Below are positions 5,748 through 57,060 of a stretch of 64,000 nt of DNA, piece by piece. This DNA comes from Polytrichum commune. Taxonomy: Eukaryota > Streptophyta > Polytrichopsida > Polytrichales > Polytrichaceae. The stretch covers positions 10,294,501-10,358,500 of the forward strand of contig OX485808.1 in NCBI GenBank assembly GCA_950295325.1. The letters run 5' to 3'. The notes below the pieces were generated by a model that searched no databases, had not been told where the DNA came from, and worked only from the letters and a program-made list of their open reading frames with translations. A program made the translations under genes and the position numbers. Position 1 is the first letter of the stretch. Every line of letters starts with the position of its first letter.

Positions 5748-6009
5748 GTATATATATAGATATATATATACTTCTATAGATATCTATATCTATATCTATA
5801 TATCTATATCTATATATCTATATCTATATATCTATATCTATATATCTATATCTATATCTATATCTATATCTATATCTATATCTATATATATATCTATATA
5901 TATATCTATATATATATCTATATATATATCTATATATATATCTATATATATATCTATATATATATCTATATATATATCTATATATATATCTATATATATA
6001 TCTATATCT

Positions 6010-6040
<31 letters not shown>
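5748..6040. repeat. TATATC / TATATATATC microsatellite
   Basis: About 290 bp of interleaved TATATC, TATC and TATATATATC units. The array changes period internally, from 6-bp and longer mixed units to 10-bp units and back. Confidence 0.95.

Positions 6041-6061
<21 letters not shown>

Positions 6062-8341: not shown

Positions 8342-8393
<52 letters not shown>
8342..8393. repeat. AG microsatellite
   Basis: Uninterrupted AG/GA run of about 26 units. Confidence 0.97.
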
Positions 8394-13043: not shown

Positions 13044-13335
13044 GCATACTAATTCTATATCCAAAGTTCTGTGGCGTTTTTATTCCTGGTTGTTATTCCT
13101 GGCTGTTATTCCTGGCTGCAGAGTAACGTAGAGTGCGGGTTACAAGATAGATTCAAAGTTTCATCAAGGTTTGAAAAATTGGCAGAGGTTTGTCTCGAGT
13201 ACCAACGCATGCCCAATGCGGAGTTTCCGAATAGAGAGTATTATGCAATTCTTTGCAAACATCTACCAAGTCTTCTTCATCTTGGCAAGTTTTAGCAAAT
13301 ATATTCTTTGGAGCTGCATACTTCTCACTGGAACT

Positions 13336-14799
13336 ATGGCAATGACGCCTGAAAGTGATTCGCCGCATCTCACCGTTTCAAATGGTCCAGCTTCTGCAGA
13401 GAGTCATTCCTCAAGTGAAGGGAATCAGTGCAATTCTCCCTGTGAGACTTGTCCAACCGATTGTCCAGAACAAGTTAGCAGCACTGAAGTGCAAAGCCAT
13501 GGCCATTGGGGATTTCTGCCAGAGGATCTGCAAGACAAGGTGGTTGCTTGTATGACGTTTCACAATGTCTTCCAGTTCCTTCAAGTGAGTAAATCGTTTG
13601 GAGACATTATCAGCAGATCGTCCTTTCTGCAGCCTCGGTCCCACCATTTTCGTATTGAAGGAAAGTTCACTCCCACGTCATTCTTCATCGACCCAACTGA
13701 ACGCAGATGGCACTGGCTAGGATATGACCTAATTTCAGAGAAATGGAGTAGGCTTCCTTCACTCTCTACTGATAGAATAGGCTTTCCAGATGCACTTCTG
13801 TGTAAGGAGTTTCTTGTTGCCGGGAGTGGTGGCCTCCTCTGCATCAATGTCTCGACGCAACCCAATTTAGAGAAGTTGAAAATCTGCAATCCCCTGACGG
13901 GAGCAATCAGGGACCTCCCACCAATGAATTTTCCAAGGCAACCCGTGGTGATGAACATCATCCTCGATAAGGAGACTGACAATTATAAAGTAATCGTGGC
14001 CGGGAGCGCAACCCCTGGCAGTGAGAAGGTCTCGAAAAAGACAGAAGTTTACGATTCCACCACCCGTACATGGGAGGTGACAGGTGATGTACCAGGGCCA
14101 GAGTATGCTCTCAACGAGTACCAAACAGGCGCATTCTCCGAGGGCATCCTCTATTGTGTTGGGTTTCTGGAGGTGGGAAATGTGGCAACCCGAGGTATTT
14201 TGGCTTACCATGTAGAGAGTGGGGAGTGGATTCGCAATTGGCGGTGCACGCTCCCAAGCTTGGACTGTTGTCAACATGTCACGTCATTAAACACTACACA
14301 AATTTTTGAGAGCGAAGGATCAATCTTCTTGTACTGGGAGCAGGAGCACAATCGCACATTGGTTCATTTCTGCATTGCGAAACTTGAGTTTCCGGTTGAC
14401 ATGTCTCATTGCGATTTTAGTGTTGATGATATTCCAACCCATGATTCCCCATTGTGGTTAGTGCAAGTGAGAGAGGACAAGTTGGGTTCTCGGGGGCTTT
14501 TGTTGTATCCGGAATACATTGGGATTACCCATGGGCCAGGCAAGGTGTGCATCTTCAACACCCTCGATCTTACAGGTTCAGTGCACAAGGTTGTAGATAT
14601 TGGAGGGCCAACAACGTCAAAGTCATCGCCACTTGATCCGGTTCCAGAAAGTATACTTCGAGGACTATGTAGAAGAGTCCGACCTATTGGAGAGGAAACT
14701 GTGGAGGATGTGATCGGTGGTAGCAGCGGGAGGCCTTTGTTTCATCCTTTGAATGCGGTCAACTTCTCCTTTGAGCCAAGCTTCCACACTCCAGTCTAA
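13336..14799 (+). CDS. F-box protein with kelch/beta-propeller C-terminal region
   Basis: An intronless 487-residue protein. The F-box spans about residues 59-95 (GFLPEDLQDKVVACM...VSKSF), the part that would bind a SKP1 adaptor in an SCF ubiquitin ligase. After it comes a propeller-like region with kelch-type blades: WHWLGYDLISEKWSRLP (125-141), LKICNPLTGAIRDLPPM (181-197), KTEVYDSTTRTWEV (235-248), GILAYHVESGEWI (287-299). This is the likely substrate-binding part. The first 55 residues are Ser/Cys-rich with no domain. The frame is open back to another ATG at 13171, which would add a hydrophobic 55-residue leader. I prefer 13336 because the sister gene at 37037 matches from near this point and lacks the leader. 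By eye about three quarters of core residues match the sister. Substrate unknown. Confidence 0.88.
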   Translation: MAMTPESDSPHLTVSNGPASAESHSSSEGNQCNSPCETCPTDCPEQVSSTEVQSHGHWGFLPEDLQDKVVACMTFHNVFQFLQVSKSFGDIISRSSFLQPRSHHFRIEGKFTPTSFFIDPTERRWHWLGYDLISEKWSRLPSLSTDRIGFPDALLCKEFLVAGSGGLLCINVSTQPNLEKLKICNPLTGAIRDLPPMNFPRQPVVMNIILDKETDNYKVIVAGSATPGSEKVSKKTEVYDSTTRTWEVTGDVPGPEYALNEYQTGAFSEGILYCVGFLEVGNVATRGILAYHVESGEWIRNWRCTLPSLDCCQHVTSLNTTQIFESEGSIFLYWEQEHNRTLVHFCIAKLEFPVDMSHCDFSVDDIPTHDSPLWLVQVREDKLGSRGLLLYPEYIGITHGPGKVCIFNTLDLTGSVHKVVDIGGPTTSKSSPLDPVPESILRGLCRRVRPIGEETVEDVIGGSSGRPLFHPLNAVNFSFEPSFHTPV

Positions 14800-36673: not shown

Positions 36674-37036
36674 ACTAAGGTATGTGGGCCATACCTATGT
36701 GGTCGCTCCGGTTAATTAATTGAACACCTACATCTGAGCAGTGTACAGAAGGGCTTGTAGCACTGCAAGGATATGTGACTTGGGTAACACGTCCTTTGTC
36801 GGTGGAAGATTATGCAAATCCACCACAGTGGTACTTATAGATTACTTCATGGTGCAAGACCATTTACATAGACGCAGGATGTACTGTTGCCTATGTCTCA
36901 TATTCTTGCAGCTTAAAACTACTGATGTGATGAGATTAGGTTATAAATGTGCTAATAAGTTAGTTTTCTTGATCTTTTTTTTATCAAGATCCCTGGGAGT
37001 TGCGCCATCCTAGTACTACTTGCAAGAGGGATCATA

Positions 37037-38494
37037 ATGGAAACAACACAAAGACAGTCCACTTGTCAATCTTCGGATGGTCATGAGCAAGACACTATTT
37101 CTCTTGATCCATCAATCGAAAAGGAGCCCATGAAACCTCTCTGTGAGATTTTACCAGTGGATTTTCCAGATCCACTAGGCAGTAGTAAACAAGGCCATTA
37201 TGATAGCAATTGGGAGATTTTGCCTGGGGAACTGCAAGACAAGGTGGTTGCGTGTATGCCGTTACACAACGCCATTCAATTCCAATCAGTGAGCAAAGCA
37301 TTCCGAGGTCTTCTCAGCAGATCGTCCTTTCTGCAGCCTCGGTCCCACCATTTTCCTACAGAAGGGAAGTTTACTCCCACGGCATTCTTCATCGACTCGG
37401 CTTCAAGCGGATGGCACTGGGTGGGGTTTGACATAGTTTCAAAGAAATGGAGTAGGCTGCCTTCACTCTCTTCTCTAGCCACTCCAGATGCAGATCTCTT
37501 CAAGGAGTTTCTAGTTGTTGGGAGCGGTGGCCTTCTCTGCATCAACATCTCGAAGCAACCTGATAAAGAGCAGTTGGTCGTTTGCAATCCATTGACGGGA
37601 ACTACAAGGGATCTTCCACCCATGAACTTTCCAAGGCAACCTGTGGTTATGCACATCATCCTCGACAAGGACACCAACAATTACAAATTAATCGTGGCCG
37701 GAAGCGCAACCATTGGCAGTGAGGACCTCTCGAGAAAGACGGAAGTTTATGATTCCTCCACCCGTGCATGGGAAGTGACTGACAATGTGCCAGGGCCAGC
37801 GTATGCTCTCAACGAGTACCAAACAGGGGCATTCTCCGAGGGCGTCCTGTATTGTGTTGGTTTTCTTGACGGGGAGAATCTGGCAACCCAGGGTGTTTTG
37901 GCTTACCATGTAGAGAGTGGAGAGTGGATTCACAATTGGCGGTGCACATTCCCAAGCTTGCAATGTTGTCAACATGTCACGCCATCAAACAATACACAGA
38001 TTTTTGAGAGCGAAGGATCAATCTTCCTGTACTGGGAGCAGGAGCACAGTCGCACAATGGTGCATTCCTGCATTGCGAAACTTGAAGCTCCGGTTGACAT
38101 CTCTCAAAGTCACTCAAGTGTTGATAGAACGCCAACCCATGATTCGCCATTGTGGTCAGTGCAAGTGAACGAGAGCTCGTCGGCCTCCAAGGGACTTTCG
38201 ATGTATCCGGAATACATTGGTGTCGGCCACGGGCCAGGAGAAGTGTGCATCTTCAACACCCTCGATCTTACAGGTTCGGTGCACAAGGTTGGAGATGGGC
38301 CAACAACATCAACACCACCGCCACTTGATCCACTGCCGGAATCTATACGTCGAGGACTCATTTCTACAAGTGTCAATAGTAGTGGGAATGAGACAAATGG
38401 GAGCGGTAGCAGCAGCAGTAGTGGGAGGCCCATCTTTTTCGCTTTGAATCCGCTCAGCTTCTCCTTTGAGCCGAGCTTCCACACTCCAGTCTAA
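37037..38494 (+). CDS. F-box protein with kelch/beta-propeller region, sister of 13336-14799
   Basis: An intronless 485-residue protein. The F-box is at about residues 61-97 (EILPGELQDKVVACMPLHNAIQF, then SVSKAF). It is followed by the same propeller-like region as the sister: WHWVGFDIVSKKWSRLP, VVCNPLTGTTRDLPPM, KTEVYDSSTRAWEV, GVLAYHVESGEWI, LYWEQEH, and the shared C-terminus SFEPSFHTPV. It is a candidate SCF substrate receptor. N-terminal 60 residues and a Ser/Gly-rich segment before the C-terminus (NGSGSSSSSGRP) differ most from the sister. The start is the first ATG in the frame after the upstream leader. The frame is intact, and changes relative to the sister look mostly conservative, suggesting selection on both. 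The 24-kb separation and lack of similar flanks point to an older dispersed duplication. Confidence 0.9.
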   Translation: METTQRQSTCQSSDGHEQDTISLDPSIEKEPMKPLCEILPVDFPDPLGSSKQGHYDSNWEILPGELQDKVVACMPLHNAIQFQSVSKAFRGLLSRSSFLQPRSHHFPTEGKFTPTAFFIDSASSGWHWVGFDIVSKKWSRLPSLSSLATPDADLFKEFLVVGSGGLLCINISKQPDKEQLVVCNPLTGTTRDLPPMNFPRQPVVMHIILDKDTNNYKLIVAGSATIGSEDLSRKTEVYDSSTRAWEVTDNVPGPAYALNEYQTGAFSEGVLYCVGFLDGENLATQGVLAYHVESGEWIHNWRCTFPSLQCCQHVTPSNNTQIFESEGSIFLYWEQEHSRTMVHSCIAKLEAPVDISQSHSSVDRTPTHDSPLWSVQVNESSSASKGLSMYPEYIGVGHGPGEVCIFNTLDLTGSVHKVGDGPTTSTPPPLDPLPESIRRGLISTSVNSSGNETNGSGSSSSSGRPIFFALNPLSFSFEPSFHTPV

Positions 38495-47475: not shown

Positions 47476-49090
47476 GTTACTTGTATAAAATAATCTTAGC
47501 AATTGATGCAACATTATTAAACATAAGTAGTTGGGTCGAACAAATTTAAGCATCAATGTGTACAAGGAATTTTAGACATTCACATTGACTCACAAGAGGA
47601 AAACATGTCCAAATCAACTACACATGATTGCAGTAATCATAGTAGAAACGGTCACCGGTATCTAGTGGTAACAATCAATTGATGTAGTCTTGATGGCCTA
47701 GTCAAAAGCCGTAATTCCCAATATTGTTGTTTCAGACCCACCGGGTATTATATGGGTTGTAATCAAATTTGTTAGGTTGAGGCATACCCTTTACCCATTT
47801 TACCATAGTGGGTGGCATGGGTTGGGTTTCAGGAGGCATTCTTTCGGTGCCGTCTTGGTAACATGCGTTAGATTTGGTGTAATGTATGGATTGCAACACC
47901 ATCCCGCCCAGTAATCCTATACCAATATTCCCACCATTGTTGCCCTTTTGTGGCTAGCAGGTTCATGCTGGAATTCAATATGTTGTGCTCCCCCACTCGC
48001 CAAAGTTGCACCTGCAATATTCAAACTATGCAAAGACTTGCACCCATCAAGCAACAATACAATTCCATAACCTGAACATTGTGTACCCAATGTCAATATC
48101 TCAATGTTTATAACTATTCATTGTATATCTCATTGAAGAGAGTGTCAATTGCCTAACACATATCATGTATTTTTGAATGCAATATTGCAACTTCTCGATT
48201 CATCCCCACAAATTTACACAAATTTTCAAGATTACAATACCCTCACACTTCCACAAATCATATCAAGAACACCTACACAAACAAAAAAGGTTGCACAACC
48301 CCCCCCCCCTCCCCCCCCCCCCCCTAGAAATGAAAATAACAATCTTCGTTCACAAGCACATATAATACTTCAAGCTTGATTCATGAGAAAATTTCACACT
48401 CCTTGCTGACAAGGGAAAAACTATGCAACAACCTAAGGGGTGCAGATACTATATGTAGAGCTTAAGCCCTAGAATGACCACGATCACAAGCAGCATGGGT
48501 AGCTCAAAATGAAGATGAGGACTGAAGAGAAATGACAGCAACACCAAACAAGTTTGCAAGTGGAGAATTTCAGTACAGAAGTACTTTGTACGTACACTCA
48601 AGCACACCTACATCAACATAAAGAGGTTGCACGTACAGACAACCACAAAAGTGCGATTCACAAGCGCATATGATTACCCAAGCTTCATCTGACAGGGAAA
48701 AGTTTATGGCCCTTGCTAAAGGGAATTATAGCAGCACCACCAGAAGACTTAAGTTAGCAAGTGGAGAATTCCGGAAAGAAAATATTTTTGATTTGTTTGA
48801 CCTCCCATACCTGTTGAAAAGATTGCGCTTGCCATCATCATCTTCATGACTCTGCTTCTTGGTGGGTATCGTCCAGCCATTTTTTTGGCATTTTTTTAAT
48901 TTCGGACGGGTGGCACAGAAGTGTGGATGAAGTTCGTTGTAGTGGCTAAAGCATGTTTTTCTAAAGTAGTTTTCTTTTTAGAATTATATGTTTCATTTTT
49001 CACTGTTTGGCTACATGACGTAAATCACAATAGTACAAATAGGGCGATAGGCATTTTGGATTCATTGCTCATGTAGGCGATAATGCATTA
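47476..49090. other. Intergenic; degenerate duplication and C tract
   Basis: No gene seen. A C-rich tract lies at 48300-48325. Two diverged copies of a block with 'acctacac', 'aggttgcac', 'cacaagc(a/g)catat', 'aagcttcat' and 'agcaagtggagaatt' occur at about 48245-48580 and 48600-48790. A C-run and filler in the first copy explain the length difference. Confidence 0.45.
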
Positions 49091-49440
49091 AAAAATGTCA
49101 TTAAATTGGCAACAAGCCTTCAAATACATTGTGCACATTGGCGAGTATTTAAAACCAATTGCTAAAAAAATTTCTAAAAACTTCTATCATCTAAATTCTA
49201 ATGAATTAAATAAAGTCCTCTCAGACGAGGCCTCGGCTGTTGTATACAAGGATCTTCCACCTCCAGTAACCAGACTCCAATGGTGACTTCCAAAAACATC
49301 AAAATTGCCAATTACAAAACCATGACACAAAACTGCGACGGATGAACAAACCAACATGTTTGGAGTCTGGGAAGTTAACACTCACAAGGACACACAATTG
49401 AACAACAAGCTAATTGAACAGCAAAGATACAAAGATACAA
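49091..49440. other. Unexplained short open frame
   Basis: A 63-codon plus-strand frame (49095-49286) ends SDEASAVVYKDLPPPVTRLQW. No family recognised; not called as a gene. Confidence 0.25.
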
Positions 49441-49985
49441 AGATTAGATTACAGCCAACAACTAATCAACCTAAAGCTAATCAACCTAAAGCTAATCAAC
49501 CAGCACCTAATGAACCTGAAGCTAATAAGCCAGCAGCTAATCAAGCTGAAGCTAATTGAACAGCAAGCTAATCAACCTAAAGCTAATCAACTAGCAAGCT
49601 AATCAACCTGAAGCTAATTGAACAACAAGCTAATCAACCTGAAGCTAATTGAACCAGCAAGCTAATCAACCAGCAACCAGCAAACTAATCAACCAGCAAG
49701 CTAATTGAACAGCCCCCTAATTGAACAGCAAGCTAATTGAACAGCAAACAAGCTAATTGAACAACAAGCTAATTAAGCAAGCTAATTGAACAACAAGCTA
49801 ATTGAACCAGCAAGCTAATTGAACAGCAAACAAGCTAATTGAACAACAAGCTAATTAAGCAAGCTAATTGAACAACAAGCTAATTGAACCAGCAAGCTAA
49901 TCAACTAGCAACCAACAAACTAATCAACCAGCAAGCTAATTGAACAGCCCCCTAATTGAACAACAAGCTAATAATCAATAACCAG
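49440..49985. repeat. Minisatellite, 3' flank of the hAT-like gene
   Basis: About 540 bp of degenerate 16-bp-class units, mainly AAGCTAATTGAACAGC and AGCTAATCAACC(T/A)GA. The same units in the same orientation fill introns 2 and 1 of the neighbouring minus-strand gene. The plus strand happens to be open in one frame early in the array (NQPKANQPAPNEPEANKP...), which I regard as a by-product of the repeat. Confidence 0.9.
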
Positions 49986-49986
49986 C

Positions 49987-50060
49987 AACTACATAAAAAA
50001 TATGCATGCGAAAAAACCTTTTGATGGAACCCTGTTTACATTGGCCATGGAGCCATAACG
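49987..50060. repeat. Inverted repeat, left arm, bracketing the hAT-like gene
   Basis: About 74 bp from AACTACATAAAA to GGAGCCATAACG. It matches the reverse complement of 55006-55080 with roughly a dozen differences. Landmarks are GCATGCGAAAAAACCTT, GGAACCCTGTTTACA and TGGCCATGGAGCC. It lies about 195 bp beyond the stop codon of the gene. Confidence 0.85.
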
Positions 50061-50255
50061 GCAGCAAGGAACCTCTGACCAACAAGCACTCATAAGTTGC
50101 AATCATAAATCCCCCCCCCAAAAAAAACACTCATGGAGGTGGAATTCCAAGTATACCCAACATCATAGAGCCTAGAATGTCATCATTGAGGAATGTTGAA
50201 ACTCGTACATAATTCCTTGTACATAGGAACCAATTACATATTAGATTGAAACGAG

Positions 50256-53200
50256 CTAGCAATCTCGTTTGTGATTCGCATGCCATATCTCATAAACCTT
50301 CTCAAACGGAAAGTTTTCCAACTTGTAAAATTTTTGGCTGAATATGCCTACACAACATGCCAAGTGCTCACTCAAACGATTGCGTAATTTGGACTTTATG
50401 AATGCCACATTCGAGAATGTGCGCTCGTCCTCAACGGACCCAAGCACTTGAACAACTGCCAATTCAGCCACCTTAAACCATTCCCCAAAGCTGCTCCTCA
50501 ACACTTGTGACATACTTAGATTCCGCCAAAGCTTGGTTAGGGGGTTGATCGTAATGGGCTTACGCATGGCATCAGCTGCGTTTGCTTTCATTGCACCTTT
50601 GAACAAACCTGCCTCGTGGTTCAAGGCTGCCATCTCCAGCACGGGTGGTGAGTACACTTCACCGACTTTCTTCTCGTAGCAATAGTGGTCCTTCAAGCAT
50701 TTGAAGTGTGCCTCAAATAGCTCATCAGCATTGGGTTGGAGCCAATACTGGGGGTAGACAACCCCCAGAGAATCCATCAAGTTCGAGGCCGGAAAACGGC
50801 TTGAAAGTTCCTTGATCAAACGATCTGCAGCCCCTACAACAGCCACCACATCCACCACAACACCCAACTACCTTGGTTAGCCACATAATCCCCAATAATG
50901 CATATCAACATATAACACAAAAACATTCACACAAGGACTATAATTGCACAAACATGGCCATACCTATGCACGAGCCCTTGACATTGTCCACAATGTCTTT
51001 AAATGCCTCCCTTGACACTGTTTGGGTGCCGCCATCTCCTTTAGGCATCGTGGCTGAATGGGTGAAAGGCCCACACTTGAAGACAACATACTCACATGCG
51101 GCTTCATTCACATCCAAAACTCCGGGCACCCATGACAGAGACATGCTGTCATGACGGCCACTAATCAAATCTGTGAACTCACGAAAAGAATCACTTGTGA
51201 AAGAGGAAACTGGATCACAATAAAGCTCGTAGAGTTGACCTTGACAGACCTTCACCGCGGCAAGGTAGTCGCATATGAAGATGTCTTGTTGTTGGCTGAA
51301 TTTCACAAGATAGTGAACCGTTTCAAGCAATGGTAAAAAACCGGCCAAGGCAATAGGGATAGAGATGTCTACAAGGAGGTTGTAGTTACCAATTGCTACC
51401 TCCCTTGCCACTGATGTTGATGTTCCATCGAGGCCATCTTGGTGCATCTTATGAACCAAGGTTCGATACTCAGACATCACCCTCTTCAAGGGTGATAACA
51501 TGGACAACCACCTCGTTTTCATGTTCCGTATGATCTTTAGACCTTTGGTTTGCATTACCTCTGAGAGCCTCGTAAATTCGATGTGTCTCTTGGGAGACCT
51601 TGCAAAATATTTGTGCAAGTTATGCAAGAGGTTCTCGATCTTGTCTATGACCGGCAAATGCGAGAGCTCCTTGATCGCAAGGTTGGTGCGATGGCTGACA
51701 CAATGAACCCCATGCATGTGGGGGCTGATCAAGTCTTGTAAGAGCCTGGTCACACCTGACCTTGCACCCTGCCACCCCCACCATCAAACATTAGACCCTA
51801 AAACCAGCATCTAATCAACCATCAAGTAATCAACCTGCAACTAATGAACCAACAAGTTATCAGCCAGCAACTAATCAACCTGAAGCTAATAAGCCAGCAA
51901 CCTGAAGTTAATAAGCTAACCAACTAATAATCAACCAGCTAATAATCAACCTGAAGCTAATAAGCTAATAATCAACCTGAAGCTAATCAACCAGCTAATA
52001 ATCAACCTAAAACTAATAAGCTAATTGAACAGCCCCCTAATTGAACAGCAATCTAATCAACTAGCAAGCTAATAAGCTAATCAACCAGCAAGCTAATCAA
52101 CCACATGCTAATCAACCTGAAGCTAAGCAACCAACAACTAATCAACCAGAAGCTAATCAACCAACAAGCAATCAACATTAAACTTTAGACAAACCAACCA
52201 GCAACTAATCACTTACTTGGAAAACTGAAGCGCCATCCGCCCCAAATGAAACGAATTTTGACAGGAGCTGCTGGGAGGTTAGACCCCCGTGGACAAGCAA
52301 GGCTTCAACAATCACCTCAGCAAGCTTTGGAGCAGTGGCCCCTTCCGTGAGACGTTCCACCGACACCAATATAGGAGTGCGGTAAAAGTCTTGGACAACA
52401 TAGGCATGGATACTTATCCAAGCCTGATTGTCTACAGTAGTAACCTCATCCACACTTATACTCAAAAACTTACCTCCATGAATGACCTCTCTTGCCTTTT
52501 GCATAACCTGGGCATAGAGATATTCAGCCATCAACCATCTGGAGTTGTCCCCCCAATGTTTCTTGCTCAGGTGAGGCATCTTCAAGAAAGTGAACAACTC
52601 ACGCATGGATTCATACTCCAGCATTGGGCGGCCATGCTGCAGCATATGAAACACCGTTGCAAATTGCGCAATCTTGCGCGCTTTATCTCCTTTGAACTCT
52701 TTTTGCACCTACAATAAAGCAATCAACAAGTTAGGTCTTAGATACACATATGTGCTCCACAATCTGATAAGCAACCAGCAAGCTAATCAACCTGAAGCTA
52801 ACTGAACAACAAAATAATTAAACAACAAGCTAATTGAACTAGCAAGCTAATCAACCAACAACCAACAAACTAATCAACCAGCAAGCTAATTGAACAGCCC
52901 CCTAATTGAACAGCCCCCTAATTGAACAGCAAGCAAGCGAATTGAACAACAAGCTAATTAAGCAAGCTAATTGAACAACAACCTAATTGAACCAGCAAGC
53001 TAATTGAACCAGCAAGCTAATTGATCCAGCAAGCTAATCAACCAACAGCTAGCAAAGTAATTGAACAACCCCCTAATTGAACAACAAGCAAGCTAATTGA
53101 ACAGCAAACTAATTGAACCAGCAAGCTAAGTGATCCAGCAAGCTAATCAACCAGCAGCCAACAAACTAATTGAACAACCCCCTAATTGAACAACAAGCTA

Positions 53201-54027
53201 ATTGAACCAGCTAATTGAAGCAGCAAGCTAATTGAACCAACAACTAATCAACCAGCAACCATGTGCAGGTTAGATCTTAGATAGGCATATAAAAAAATAT
53301 GACAAGAACAAACATGGCTAAGGTGGAAGACACTTACTTGTTGAAGAATAGTTGGCCGATGCAAGGATTGGGCATTGTAGATAGGAACAGCCTTGAGATG
53401 GCCACACTTAGGGTTAATGTAGTATTCGTCTTTTTTTGCATTCAAGTGTGGAAGATCAACCTTTGCCTGCCTTTTTCCAGCATGTTTTTCAAGGGTATCA
53501 GATTTAGCACCCATCACAACAGGTCTACCTTTCACAGACGTGCAAACAATGCACTGAACCCTATCAACAGAAGATTCTTTCCCAGCCCGCAACATTTCAG
53601 CCCATGGATGGGCAAGAGCCCAATTATCCTGACACTTACGACTAGCAGATTCCTTACCTTTACATTTTTTCTGTGTTTTCTTGGCTACAGGAACCTCAGA
53701 GTCAGTCACATTGATGACCTCCAGAAGATCAGACTCGGACTCAACACATATGGACGTGGAATGGGGATTTGGGTTGGATGGTAGGCCACCAGGGCAAATG
53801 AGCTTAACGGCCTTATTAGCTTTTGCGGGGGTGCTGCAATCCTCATCAGGTTTGCTACCAGATGAAGAGGCAGATGAATCAAGCTTTGCACGCTTGCGAG
53901 GGGATGCATCAGACAAGCAAATAGGGCCAGAGTTGGCGGAATTCCGCGAGCTAATGAAATAGCTCTCGAGGACGGTGGCCCTCCTGGCCTTGATAGCCTT
54001 CGACAATGGGGTGGAGGAGGCCGACAT
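50256..54027 (-). CDS. Intact hAT-transposase-family protein (854 aa, four exons)
   Basis: Exons (minus strand): 54027-53338, 52708-52217, 51768-50964, 50833-50256. Introns have GTAAGT/TTGTAG, GTAAGT/GGCAG and GTATGG/TTGTAG ends; phases 0, 0, 1 fit, leaving one open frame. Domains: basic nuclear-signal-like PRKRAK (43-48); an atypical zinc-finger-like CxxC (159, 162) with H182 (SDTLEKHAGKRQ), like plant/animal ZNF862-type hAT proteins; catalytic core with D317 (SISVDEVTT), D388 (SFGADGASVFQ), C417xxH420 (VHCVSHRTNLA), TRW 479-481; C-terminal dimerisation domain from about 785 with E799-R800 (GSVEDERTFSNV, KLRNRLSEH). These are the positions a hAT enzyme uses to cut and join DNA, assigned here by eye. 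It may be a live transposase or a domesticated gene. Start: first ATG of exon 1; no nearer alternative is compelling. Confidence 0.82.
51785..52195. repeat. Minisatellite in intron 2 of the hAT-like gene
   Basis: Nearly the whole 448-bp intron (52216-51769) consists of CAGCAACTAATCAACCTGAAG / AAGCTAATAAGC-type units, related to those at 49440-49985. Confidence 0.88.
52765..53265. repeat. Minisatellite in intron 1 of the hAT-like gene
   Basis: Most of the 629-bp intron (53337-52709). Units are AAGCTAATTGAACAGC, CAGCAAGCTAATCAACC and GCCCCCTAATTGAACA, in the same orientation as the other arrays. Confidence 0.88.
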
Positions 54028-54037
54028 TGCGGCAACA

Positions 54038-54112
54038 GGTTGATTAGCTTGCTGGTTGATTAGCTTGCTGGTTAACTAGCTTCAGGTTGATTAGTTGCTG
54101 GTGATTAGTTGG
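54038..54112. repeat. Inverted-orientation piece of the same minisatellite
   Basis: GGTTGATTAGCTTGCTGGTT units directly upstream of the hAT-like start codon. They are the reverse complement of the units found in the introns and 3' flank. Confidence 0.85.
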
Positions 54113-54117
54113 TAGTT

Positions 54118-54330
54118 CCAGGAAGACGAGCACAAGATGCACAAGAAGGAGGCTGGATGTACAAGATGCACAAGAAGCACAAGGTGCACAAGAAGCACCG
54201 AATGAATCCGCCCAAGATGCACAAGAAGCACCGAATGAAGCCGCCCACCACCAACAGGGAAGTCGAGATCACGATGCAGCGAATGGATCTGCCCACCGCC
54301 CACCGAATGAATCCGCCTCCACCTCCCCAA
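54118..54330. repeat. Second minisatellite upstream of the hAT-like gene
   Basis: Tandem units 'aagatgcacaagaagcac' and 'cgaatgaatccgcccaag', about five diverged copies. The plus-strand frame across it (MHKKHRMNPP-type repeats) is probably non-coding. Confidence 0.8.
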
Positions 54331-54639
54331 ATCAGCCACAACCAAAGGCCAACCCCAATCAGCCACAACCAACTCTAAGTAAGTTTGGATTGCTCAAGAA
54401 TTGCAGAAAGCCAAATTGAACAACTTCAATTGCATTGCACAAACAACAATAATCATTGAGAGCCAGCAGGAGTATGGAAGGTGAGGGAGCCCATTTTGTG
54501 AGCATAGTCCGCATTTTGCTGAGCAAGCCGGATTCAGAAGTCGACGTCGCAATTCAGCAGCAACAAGTGCAAGCCTTCATTCCCTAATCAACCCCACTAC
54601 CCCACTACCCCACTAACATGGTAGTATGGTACTCAGAAA

Positions 54640-55005
54640 CTTGAAAAAGGGGGAGTGGGCTGCGTGCAAATGGAGAATTGAGGCTAGCTGCTACAGAGTG
54701 GAGAGTCTGGACTCCCGACCCTAAACTCATCCACTGGCGATGAGAACTTGGGGGTTTGTAGCAGAAATGGGCGATGAAGCTCGAATGAAGGCGCACCCTG
54801 GGCGAAATGCATCCACGGAGGGGAAGATATGTTCGTTGGGGATGAGAGTGGGTGGCGACAGGAAATTATTACGCCACTCTCCACTTCGCAATGGGGCGCC
54901 GCCGGGGGGGTCGACTTCGCTAGCCAAGGACGTGGAGGGCGACAAGCAGGCCACTCCTTTGCCCATAATGGGGCTAAGTGGCACCCACCCACCTTCTGAG
55001 GTGGA
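54640..55005. promoter_or_regulatory. GC-rich island upstream of the hAT-like gene
   Basis: Much richer in G and C than the surrounding tens of kilobases, with CpG pairs (for example GGGCGCCGCCGG near 54894). It lies 0.6-1.0 kb upstream of the minus-strand start and inside the right inverted repeat, so it could hold the promoter. Open frames on both strands here lack domains. Confidence 0.35.
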
Positions 55006-55080
55006 CGTTTTGGCTCCATGGCCAGTGTAAACAGGGTTCCACCAACAAGGTTTTTTCGCATGCTTATATTTTATGTAGTT
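55006..55080. repeat. Inverted repeat, right arm, bracketing the hAT-like gene
   Basis: Reverse complement of 49987-50060. It contains CAGGGTTCCACCAACAAGG, whose CAGGG start is typical of hAT ends, but that pentamer faces away from the gene rather than forming the outer tip of the bracketed unit. I could not find matching 8-bp duplications beside the outer edges of the two arms. Confidence 0.85.
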
Positions 55081-55224
55081 TTGTGGCTACATTTAGCCCC
55101 AAAAAAAAAGGCTGGTATCGTCCATCATGAATGTAGACAAGGCCGATCAGGAATGTGGGGAACATAGGATGACGTGGCCGTCTCAGAGGGTGGCTTTTCT
55201 AGACAACATTTCCAGCCTCCTACT

Positions 55225-55345
55225 CAATGACACTTGGCAATAGTGTGTTCAAAAATATCTTTCTCTTGTATACTAAAATGTAAAACACATGACACTTGCC
55301 ATTAGTATGCTCAATAATATCTCCCCTTTGCATACAAAATCACAA
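55225..55345. repeat. Fragment of dispersed repeat family A
   Basis: 'tgacacttg(c/g)cattagtatgctcaa' and flanking blocks match 10795-10870 in the same orientation. Confidence 0.6.
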
Positions 55346-57060
55346 ATAATATTTATAACTAAATTCATAGGTATAAAATCTATAACTATTCATTGTACAT
55401 CTCATTTTTGCCAATAAAGGTCAAATTGGTTGTTTGGACATTATAGAACATAAACATCTTTAAAAAGTAAAAAAATTACATTAATAATAAAAGATATAGC
55501 ATTGTGTAACTCCAATAGTAAGTGACACTAAATACAATATTTAGTGTACTATTGGTACTCTCTCTATGCATGCCCCACCAAGGGTTTGGGGGGGAGGGGG
55601 GTTAGAGCTTTAAAGTCCTCATGTCAGGTTGAGTATTAGACTTCATCCCCCGTTTTCTCAAAACTTGTTTCACATTATTGTGCATATGAAATTTGTGAAT
55701 CTAACAAGTTATGAGAAGAAAATCCACGCAAAGTGTATGCATGCTACTACAATTGGCACTCTCTCTATATGTGCCCCAAAGGGAGGCTAGAGCTTCATGG
55801 TGTCTATGTGTAAACTCATCCTTTGGAAATGTAGACACAACAATCAAAACTTCTCCAAAATCCTATGTCCAACATGATGAAGACTAGCCTGATCGCTCTT
55901 ACAATCATGAACACCAAAATGCGAATGGTACAAAAGTGTGTAAATTCCGTCCTTCGTGACTCGATGCCCATGCAACCTTGGATACCATTAAACATCGAAC
56001 CATTGCAAGCATAGGGTGAATGCAAGTTGGAACCACAAAGAATGGAGAGATGAAGAGCATGTTGTTGGTGCAGAGGCCACCGTGCTTGATTACTAAATCA
56101 TGCAAAAAGAACTCACAATCATATAATGACATGATCATAATCACAAAGTCCAAAAATTTATGTGGCTTGCATATACTTTGCAGTTTGCAGCAATCAAAAG
56201 CTATTGATTTGTGGGCACAACAACGAATAATACAAGTGTCAAAAGTATTCCAACCATGGCATAACATAGGATGCCACCCTCTGCCATCCGAGGAGAGATG
56301 GCATCCACCGAAGAAAAATGTCAGCAAAGTCCTTAAAAAACAAACGCATTGGAGTGGATAACCATACCCTCATACCATGGACATCAACCCACATAAGGCA
56401 ACCATCAAGACCGGTCCAACATGCAACCATGAAAACGTAATCAATAGGTCACCCTCCATCCAATTACTGCACCAAACAACCAATGCCAGCAATTGAAGTG
56501 CAACCGAAATGGCAGTGCCTAGCCGGAATGGATGACATTGCAACCGAATCAACCAAAACCCAAATCCCACTTGAAATGGGTTTCATTCACTGCCATTCCA
56601 ACATAAAAGGCAGTCAAAACGGCGGTTCTAATCAAAACGGTTGTGGACATGGCTGCTATCAGCACCGTAGCACATGATTGATTTGGACAAGTTTTCCTCT
56701 AATGGTTGTTGTCAAGTAAAGAGAATTTGCTTTAGGGACACACGAGGCATTTGGTTGCAAATTATTTGGTTTCTCCCATGAATTCTAGGTTCTGACAGCG
56801 ATAAACTACATCACTCAATACTCTTTGAATCACCTAGAAATTTTAATTTTCTCATTTTCATTATTCACCTTCACTAGATTCATTTGCATGCTTAACCCTC
56901 ATTTCTTCATATCAAATAATGAAATTTCAAACCTGATATTTATCTCAAATATCAAATGATTTTGGATACATCAAGTACAAATCCAATCACCATTCATTAT
57001 TTCAACATATCAAATTCACCATCCAACATAAAATTATACAAATAAAATATGTTTTATTGT
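55346..57060. other. Intergenic; possible old transposase scrap on the minus strand
   Basis: A minus-strand stretch (56430-55905) stays coding-like (HGMRVWLSTPMRLFFKDFAD, then CKPHKFLDFVIMIMSLYD). The KPHKF plus downstream pattern faintly recalls piggyBac-type transposases, but too little is conserved to call it. A G tract lies at 55589-55600. Confidence 0.25.

Follow-up and report, generated by a model that had tools for sequence, protein, structure and literature searches.

The window analysed here is a stretch of 64,000 nucleotides from Polytrichum commune (contig OX485808.1; C6:10294501-10358500 of a 408-Mb, 64-contig genome assembly, which is also the scope of all own-genome comparisons below), and it carries a transposable element of 6241 bp with a four-exon gene on the minus strand. 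We read this element as a cut-and-paste DNA transposon of the hAT type, intact and putatively autonomous, that belongs to a low-copy family and bears minisatellite arrays which repair would have spread within it, and we give this reading a probability of roughly 0.85. Its features, in window positions, are the following.

48866..48873, unstranded: left 8-bp target site duplication, GTATCGTC, identical to 55115-55122
48874..55114: complete element of 6241 bp with termini CAGCC...GGCTG, its gene on the minus strand and its end points common to six copies
48874..48888, unstranded: left terminal inverted repeat, imperfect and about 15 bp long, from comparison of the termini
49396..49983, plus strand: minisatellite array in the 3' non-coding part, unit as in introns 1 and 2, from repeat analysis
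49987..50060, plus strand: left arm of an internal inverted repeat, an inverted copy of the right arm, from repeat comparison
50256..50833, minus strand: exon 4, stop included, with a DERTFS motif (E799) resembling the hAT C-terminal signature
50834..50963, minus strand: intron 3, 130 nt, without an array
50964..51768, minus strand: exon 3, carrying C417xxH420 and R480-W481
51769..52216, minus strand: intron 2, 448 nt, minisatellite at about 51802-52176
52217..52708, minus strand: exon 2, carrying D317 and D388
52709..53337, minus strand: intron 1, 629 nt, minisatellite at about 52776-53261
53338..54027, minus strand: exon 1, with a CxxC, picked out by eye, that may belong to an N-terminal zinc finger
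54038..54108, minus strand: short array just before the ATG, the intron-1/2 unit inverted, from repeat analysis
55006..55080, minus strand: right arm of the internal inverted repeat, lying 34 bp in from the true right end, from repeat comparison
55100..55114, unstranded: right terminal inverted repeat, imperfect and about 15 bp long, from comparison of the termini
55115..55122, unstranded: right 8-bp target site duplication, GTATCGTC, identical to 48866-48873

The four exons join into 2565 nt encoding 854 amino acids, with a single stop at the end, and all introns begin with GT and end with AG. As the frame and its splice sites are repeated in three other genomic copies (B, E and F), the gene model is more than chance, and the four-exon frame of 854 residues proposed in the initial annotation is borne out. 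Across these four elements intron 3 measures 120-130 nt, and introns 1 and 2 span 101-643 and 440-763 nt. The acidic residues, CxxH, RW and SER-like glutamate that had been named from the sequence are all present and follow the hAT order, D317, D388, C417xxH420, R480W481 and E799, that is, a DDE (Asp-Asp-Glu) triad with the CxxH and RW placed as in hAT enzymes, the catalytic role of these residues being putative.

The window element terminates in CAGCCATTTTTTTGG and the complement of CAGCCTTTTTTTTTG. In seven elements the terminal inverted repeats start with CAGCCWTTTTTTT, run for about 15 bp and pair between left and right with 1-3 mismatches; hAT terminal repeats often begin with CAG. Perfect 8-bp duplications, each different, flank all six copies that retain both ends, namely the window element, copy B (C5:29.81 Mb; GTTCTAAC on both sides), copy C (C1:49.47 Mb; GTGTTTAT), copy D (C5:1.47 Mb; GTGAGGAG), copy E (C2:50.54 Mb; GTTCCTAT) and copy F (C6:22.54 Mb; GCGAGCAC). 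Adding a distant relative, K (C1:11890812-11894921, 4110 bp), which has the termini of the family and CTCATTAC on both sides, brings the count to seven of seven two-ended elements, whereas copies G (C3) and H (C4) retain the left end only and stand outside it. The target consensus of Ac-group hAT elements is nTnnnnAn, and among these few sites T at position 2 and A at position 7 occur together in five of the seven duplications and each singly in six.

The roughly 74-bp inverted repeat that brackets the gene is real: 49987-50020 and 55047-55080 are 94% complementary, and 50011-50060 and 55006-55055 are 88% complementary. It had also been taken as the boundary of an element of about 5.1 kb, and this part of the claim does not hold, as homology to the other copies extends past both arms. 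Positions 49987 and 55080 are ruled out as ends, since other copies continue on both sides and the duplications lie at 48866-48873 and 55115-55122; the repeat is internal to an element of 6241 bp. Its left arm is found in copies B and G as well; C, E and F possess just the right arm and have other sequence at the place that matches the left arm of the window element. An inverted repeat flanking a transposase gene need not mark the ends of the element.

The genome search for further copies with the same arms did return other copies, with the qualification that the left arm lacks a counterpart in C, E and F. With the left 499 bp as query, eight matches were found, the window element and B to H, that is, seven other loci, K not being among them. 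Exon 4 gave 12 matches, comprising seven full-length ones at 95-100% identity, a partial one in H with 94% identity and four in relatives, including K, with 67-76%; exon 3 was not found in K. Frames of full length (854 or 855 amino acids) with their splice sites are present in the window element, B, E and F. The frame of copy C is broken by a 1-bp deletion in exon 1, and that of copy D by a 15.6-kb insertion in the same exon. The insertion in copy D (C5, about 1469563-1485211) has ends that look mutually inverted and is perhaps another large terminal-inverted-repeat element.

Segmental duplication as the origin of the copies is ruled out by their unrelated flanks: among sixteen 1-kb flanks there was no match between copies, the sole non-self match joining the two flanks of copy D. 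A check for the empty site, in which the 600-bp flanks of the window element were joined, gave matches at other loci among the 40 of 2438 candidates that were scored. The best left-flank paralogue among these (C3:28120300-28120454) extends no more than 5 bases beyond the junction, and the right flank (about 55226-55346) lies within a dispersed repeat that accounts for 41 of the 46 listed joined-flank matches, at 84-90% identity.

Exon identity within lineages is 99.1% (window element and B) and about 99.7% (C, D and E), and falls to 93-95% between lineages. The ratio of non-synonymous to synonymous substitution rates (dN/dS), computed with our own Nei-Gojobori script, is 0.14-0.19 between lineages and 0.23 between the window element and B (12 synonymous and 10 non-synonymous differences), whereas the youngest copies C, D and E differ among themselves by 0-1 synonymous and 7-8 non-synonymous changes. 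In C, D and E three extra bases follow ATG-TCG (seen directly for E), and the first two codons of these copies are misaligned in the calculation, which adds a few false differences against the window element, B and F. When exons 2 and 4 are compared with those of K, dN comes to 0.18-0.31 and synonymous changes have reached saturation. The comparison of synonymous and non-synonymous changes recommended in the initial annotation, run on copies of the element's own genome, gives constraint between lineages and none apparent among C, D and E. Purifying selection between lineages with no constraint among the newest copies points to a transposase that would be kept functional between jumps and released after insertion, rather than to a host gene.

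The non-coding parts of the element behave differently from its exons, in that one minisatellite unit has given way to another between lineages whose exons are only 5-7% apart. In the window element a unit of 15-16 bp makes up the arrays of the first two introns, the 3' non-coding part and the patch before the ATG, and those parts of B and G that were inspected have the same unit. The unit of copies C, D and E measures 13 bp and is found in intron 2 and the 3' part, and in C and E also, inverted, before the ATG. In copy F a unit of 20 bp occupies two sites, intron 2 and the patch before the ATG. Thus in three lineages one unit is common to two to four non-coding sites, inverted patches included, and the unit differs between lineages. 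Intron 2 of K carries yet another unit that contains TTTCAG and so offers many possible splice acceptors. The intron-1 array of the window element is flanked by a 25-bp duplication (52727-52751 and 53266-53290, 84% identical) of a stretch that is single in copy C.

We compared arrays by their sharing of 9-mers, with the array segments cut by hand. Within the window element sharing between sites was 0.41-0.70 (six pairs), within C 0.20-0.50 (three pairs of arrayed sites) and within F 0.26 for one pair and 0-0.01 for the remaining pairs; the same site compared across lineages gave 0.00-0.20, the highest value being due to 3' sequence common to C and F. Simulated sequences (five pairs, 100 draws each) did not exceed 0.10. 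A genome-wide search with one pattern per unit placed all 66 of 66 hits inside family copies (14/14 with up to 2 mismatches, 31/31 with up to 1, 21/21 with up to 2). Capture of the arrays from host satellites is rejected, as the unit patterns match only within family copies, with more distant forms elsewhere being possible.

Tentatively, we propose that these private minisatellites are passengers of the transposon, which repair may copy, in direct or inverted orientation, from one to another of four sites (the first two introns, the 3' side and the 5' leader), such that the unit could be swapped in two introns while exons drift by 5-7% and the frame stays open. After excision, gap repair (or replication restart) inside the element would switch template between array copies and sometimes jump to the opposite end in inverted orientation, which would spread one array to several sites; the same process may have placed a copy of the right subterminal arm on the left side, creating the inverted repeat. 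The left side of the window element consists of a patch of array and an inverted copy of the right arm, and this arm presumably belongs to the same turnover as the arrays. To judge from the sequences, the inverted patches, the inverted arm copy and the junction duplication are consistent with template switching in gap repair.

An alternative that we consider unlikely is that the units arose at each site by separate slippage from short ancestral seeds, with no copying between sites. Tandem arrays expand by slippage in any case, and the units of the window element and C share a sub-motif (0.15 in intron 2); moreover, the sites within K share next to nothing (0-0.02), which favours slippage and speaks against spread by repair. 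However, intron 2 of F shares only 0.00-0.01 with that of the window element or C and yet its own unit is found both there and in the 5' patch, the window and C lineages have inverted patches, and the left side carries an inverted copy of the right arm.

We assign the transposon to the hAT superfamily because of its duplications, its termini and the order D317-D388-CxxH-RW-E799. In the available portions of the sources, hAT elements are described as 2.5-5 kb long, their terminal repeats as 10-25 bp and their duplications as 8 bp (PMC3942097), and the CXXH motif of Kat1 as required for hairpin formation (PMC4763223). Within the same limits the family is like Hermes, Ac and Tip100 in its 8-bp duplications, its terminal repeats of about 15 bp and its D-D-CxxH-RW-E order (PMC3942097, PMC4763223), and unlike the superfamily in that the window element has 6.2 kb and its protein is recognised by no Pfam hAT model. 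The spacing between the two aspartates is 71, compared to 71, 70 and 61 in three hAT proteins of the same genome, and the motif order and spacing resemble those of own-genome proteins with a Pfam hAT domain. The motif pattern, which was chosen after the fact, is reached by 10 of 20000 shuffles and fits three of the five accepted hAT frames to which it was applied, the exceptions being L027 and L030. The predicted order of secondary structure in exon 2 is helix-strand-strand-strand-helix-strand at low confidence, and the predicted fold of exon 4 has a predicted local distance difference test score (pLDDT) of 45. The protein would bind the short terminal repeats, excise the element by DDE chemistry and insert it at an 8-bp staggered cut.

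Eight-bp duplications are also made by P, Merlin, Sola and MULE (Mutator-like element) type transposons, and the element could be a complete member of such a superfamily that merely looks hAT-like. Several results lean this way: neither the whole protein nor its exons match the Pfam hAT models (PF05699 and others), sequence searches of PDB with phmmer and hmmsearch gave nothing useful, hmmsearch and hhalign found no significant match to own-genome hAT proteins, and in hhalign controls two of three pairs of accepted hAT proteins outscored the pairing of this family, the last telling somewhat against membership. Exon 4 gave no Pfam match at E<=10, hATC included, and the weak Pfam matches below cut-off (4HBT_3, bpX6) we take as chance. 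The window locus was absent from the 150 candidates scored, out of 1060, in a genome search for Pfam hAT domains. Nevertheless, a CxxH and an RW lie between the second D and the E, the terminal repeats are short and begin with CAG, the D1-D2 spacing is near that of own-genome hAT proteins, and the DERTFS motif is SER-like (hhalign sets it on the SER motif of own-genome hATC segments, weakly, at P 0.018 and a probability of 2.5%), and we regard another superfamily as quite improbable. The initial reading of a complete autonomous hAT-like element gains support from the ends, the duplications and the full-length copies, autonomy being putative.

The other reading offered at first, a domesticated hAT gene, that is, a host gene with surviving old transposon ends, would account for the intact frame and the between-lineage dN/dS of 0.14-0.19, but it is largely refuted and has very little probability left, given the left end at eight different loci, the different perfect duplications at all six two-ended copies, the unrelated flanks, the mostly non-synonymous changes without sign of constraint after insertion in the near-identical C, D and E, and the two copies broken by a 15.6-kb insertion and a 1-bp deletion. 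The family is one of low-copy, recently mobile transposons.

Elsewhere in the window, two open frames on the plus strand match kelch, 13132-14799 (555 amino acids, with an F-box match as well) and 36959-38494 (511 amino acids); they are alike by eye, are likely paralogues about 22 kb apart and suggest that the host is a land plant. Simple repeats, a long TATATA/TATATC tract and (AG)26, lie at 5749-6042 and 8342-8393.

Minisatellites within or derived from transposons are common, and in the portions of PMC9659126 available on such tandem repeats there is no account of an intact element in which one unit recurs in introns and at both non-coding ends. The nearest precedent in the open-licence literature, searched with few terms and so giving no proof of absence, is MtPH-A6-4 of Medicago truncatula, a PIF/Harbinger-like element with 60-bp tandem repeats that its authors link to abortive gap repair (PMC2213677). 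It differs in superfamily, in its 3-bp duplications and in having one 60-bp unit for the subfamily (PMC2213677); the available portions of that paper describe a TA microsatellite in an intron of a sister subfamily and report neither an array shared by introns nor replacement of the unit between lineages.

The locus thus combines an ordinary core, an intact and recently mobile hAT-type transposon, with an uncommon layer of minisatellites that are lineage-specific and private to the element. With four full-length copies, this transposon lends itself directly to transposition assays. The lineages of the family are snapshots of minisatellites replacing introns inside a gene that stays open, and they allow one to test whether post-excision repair drives the turnover of introns and generates internal inverted repeats that can be mistaken for the ends of an element.

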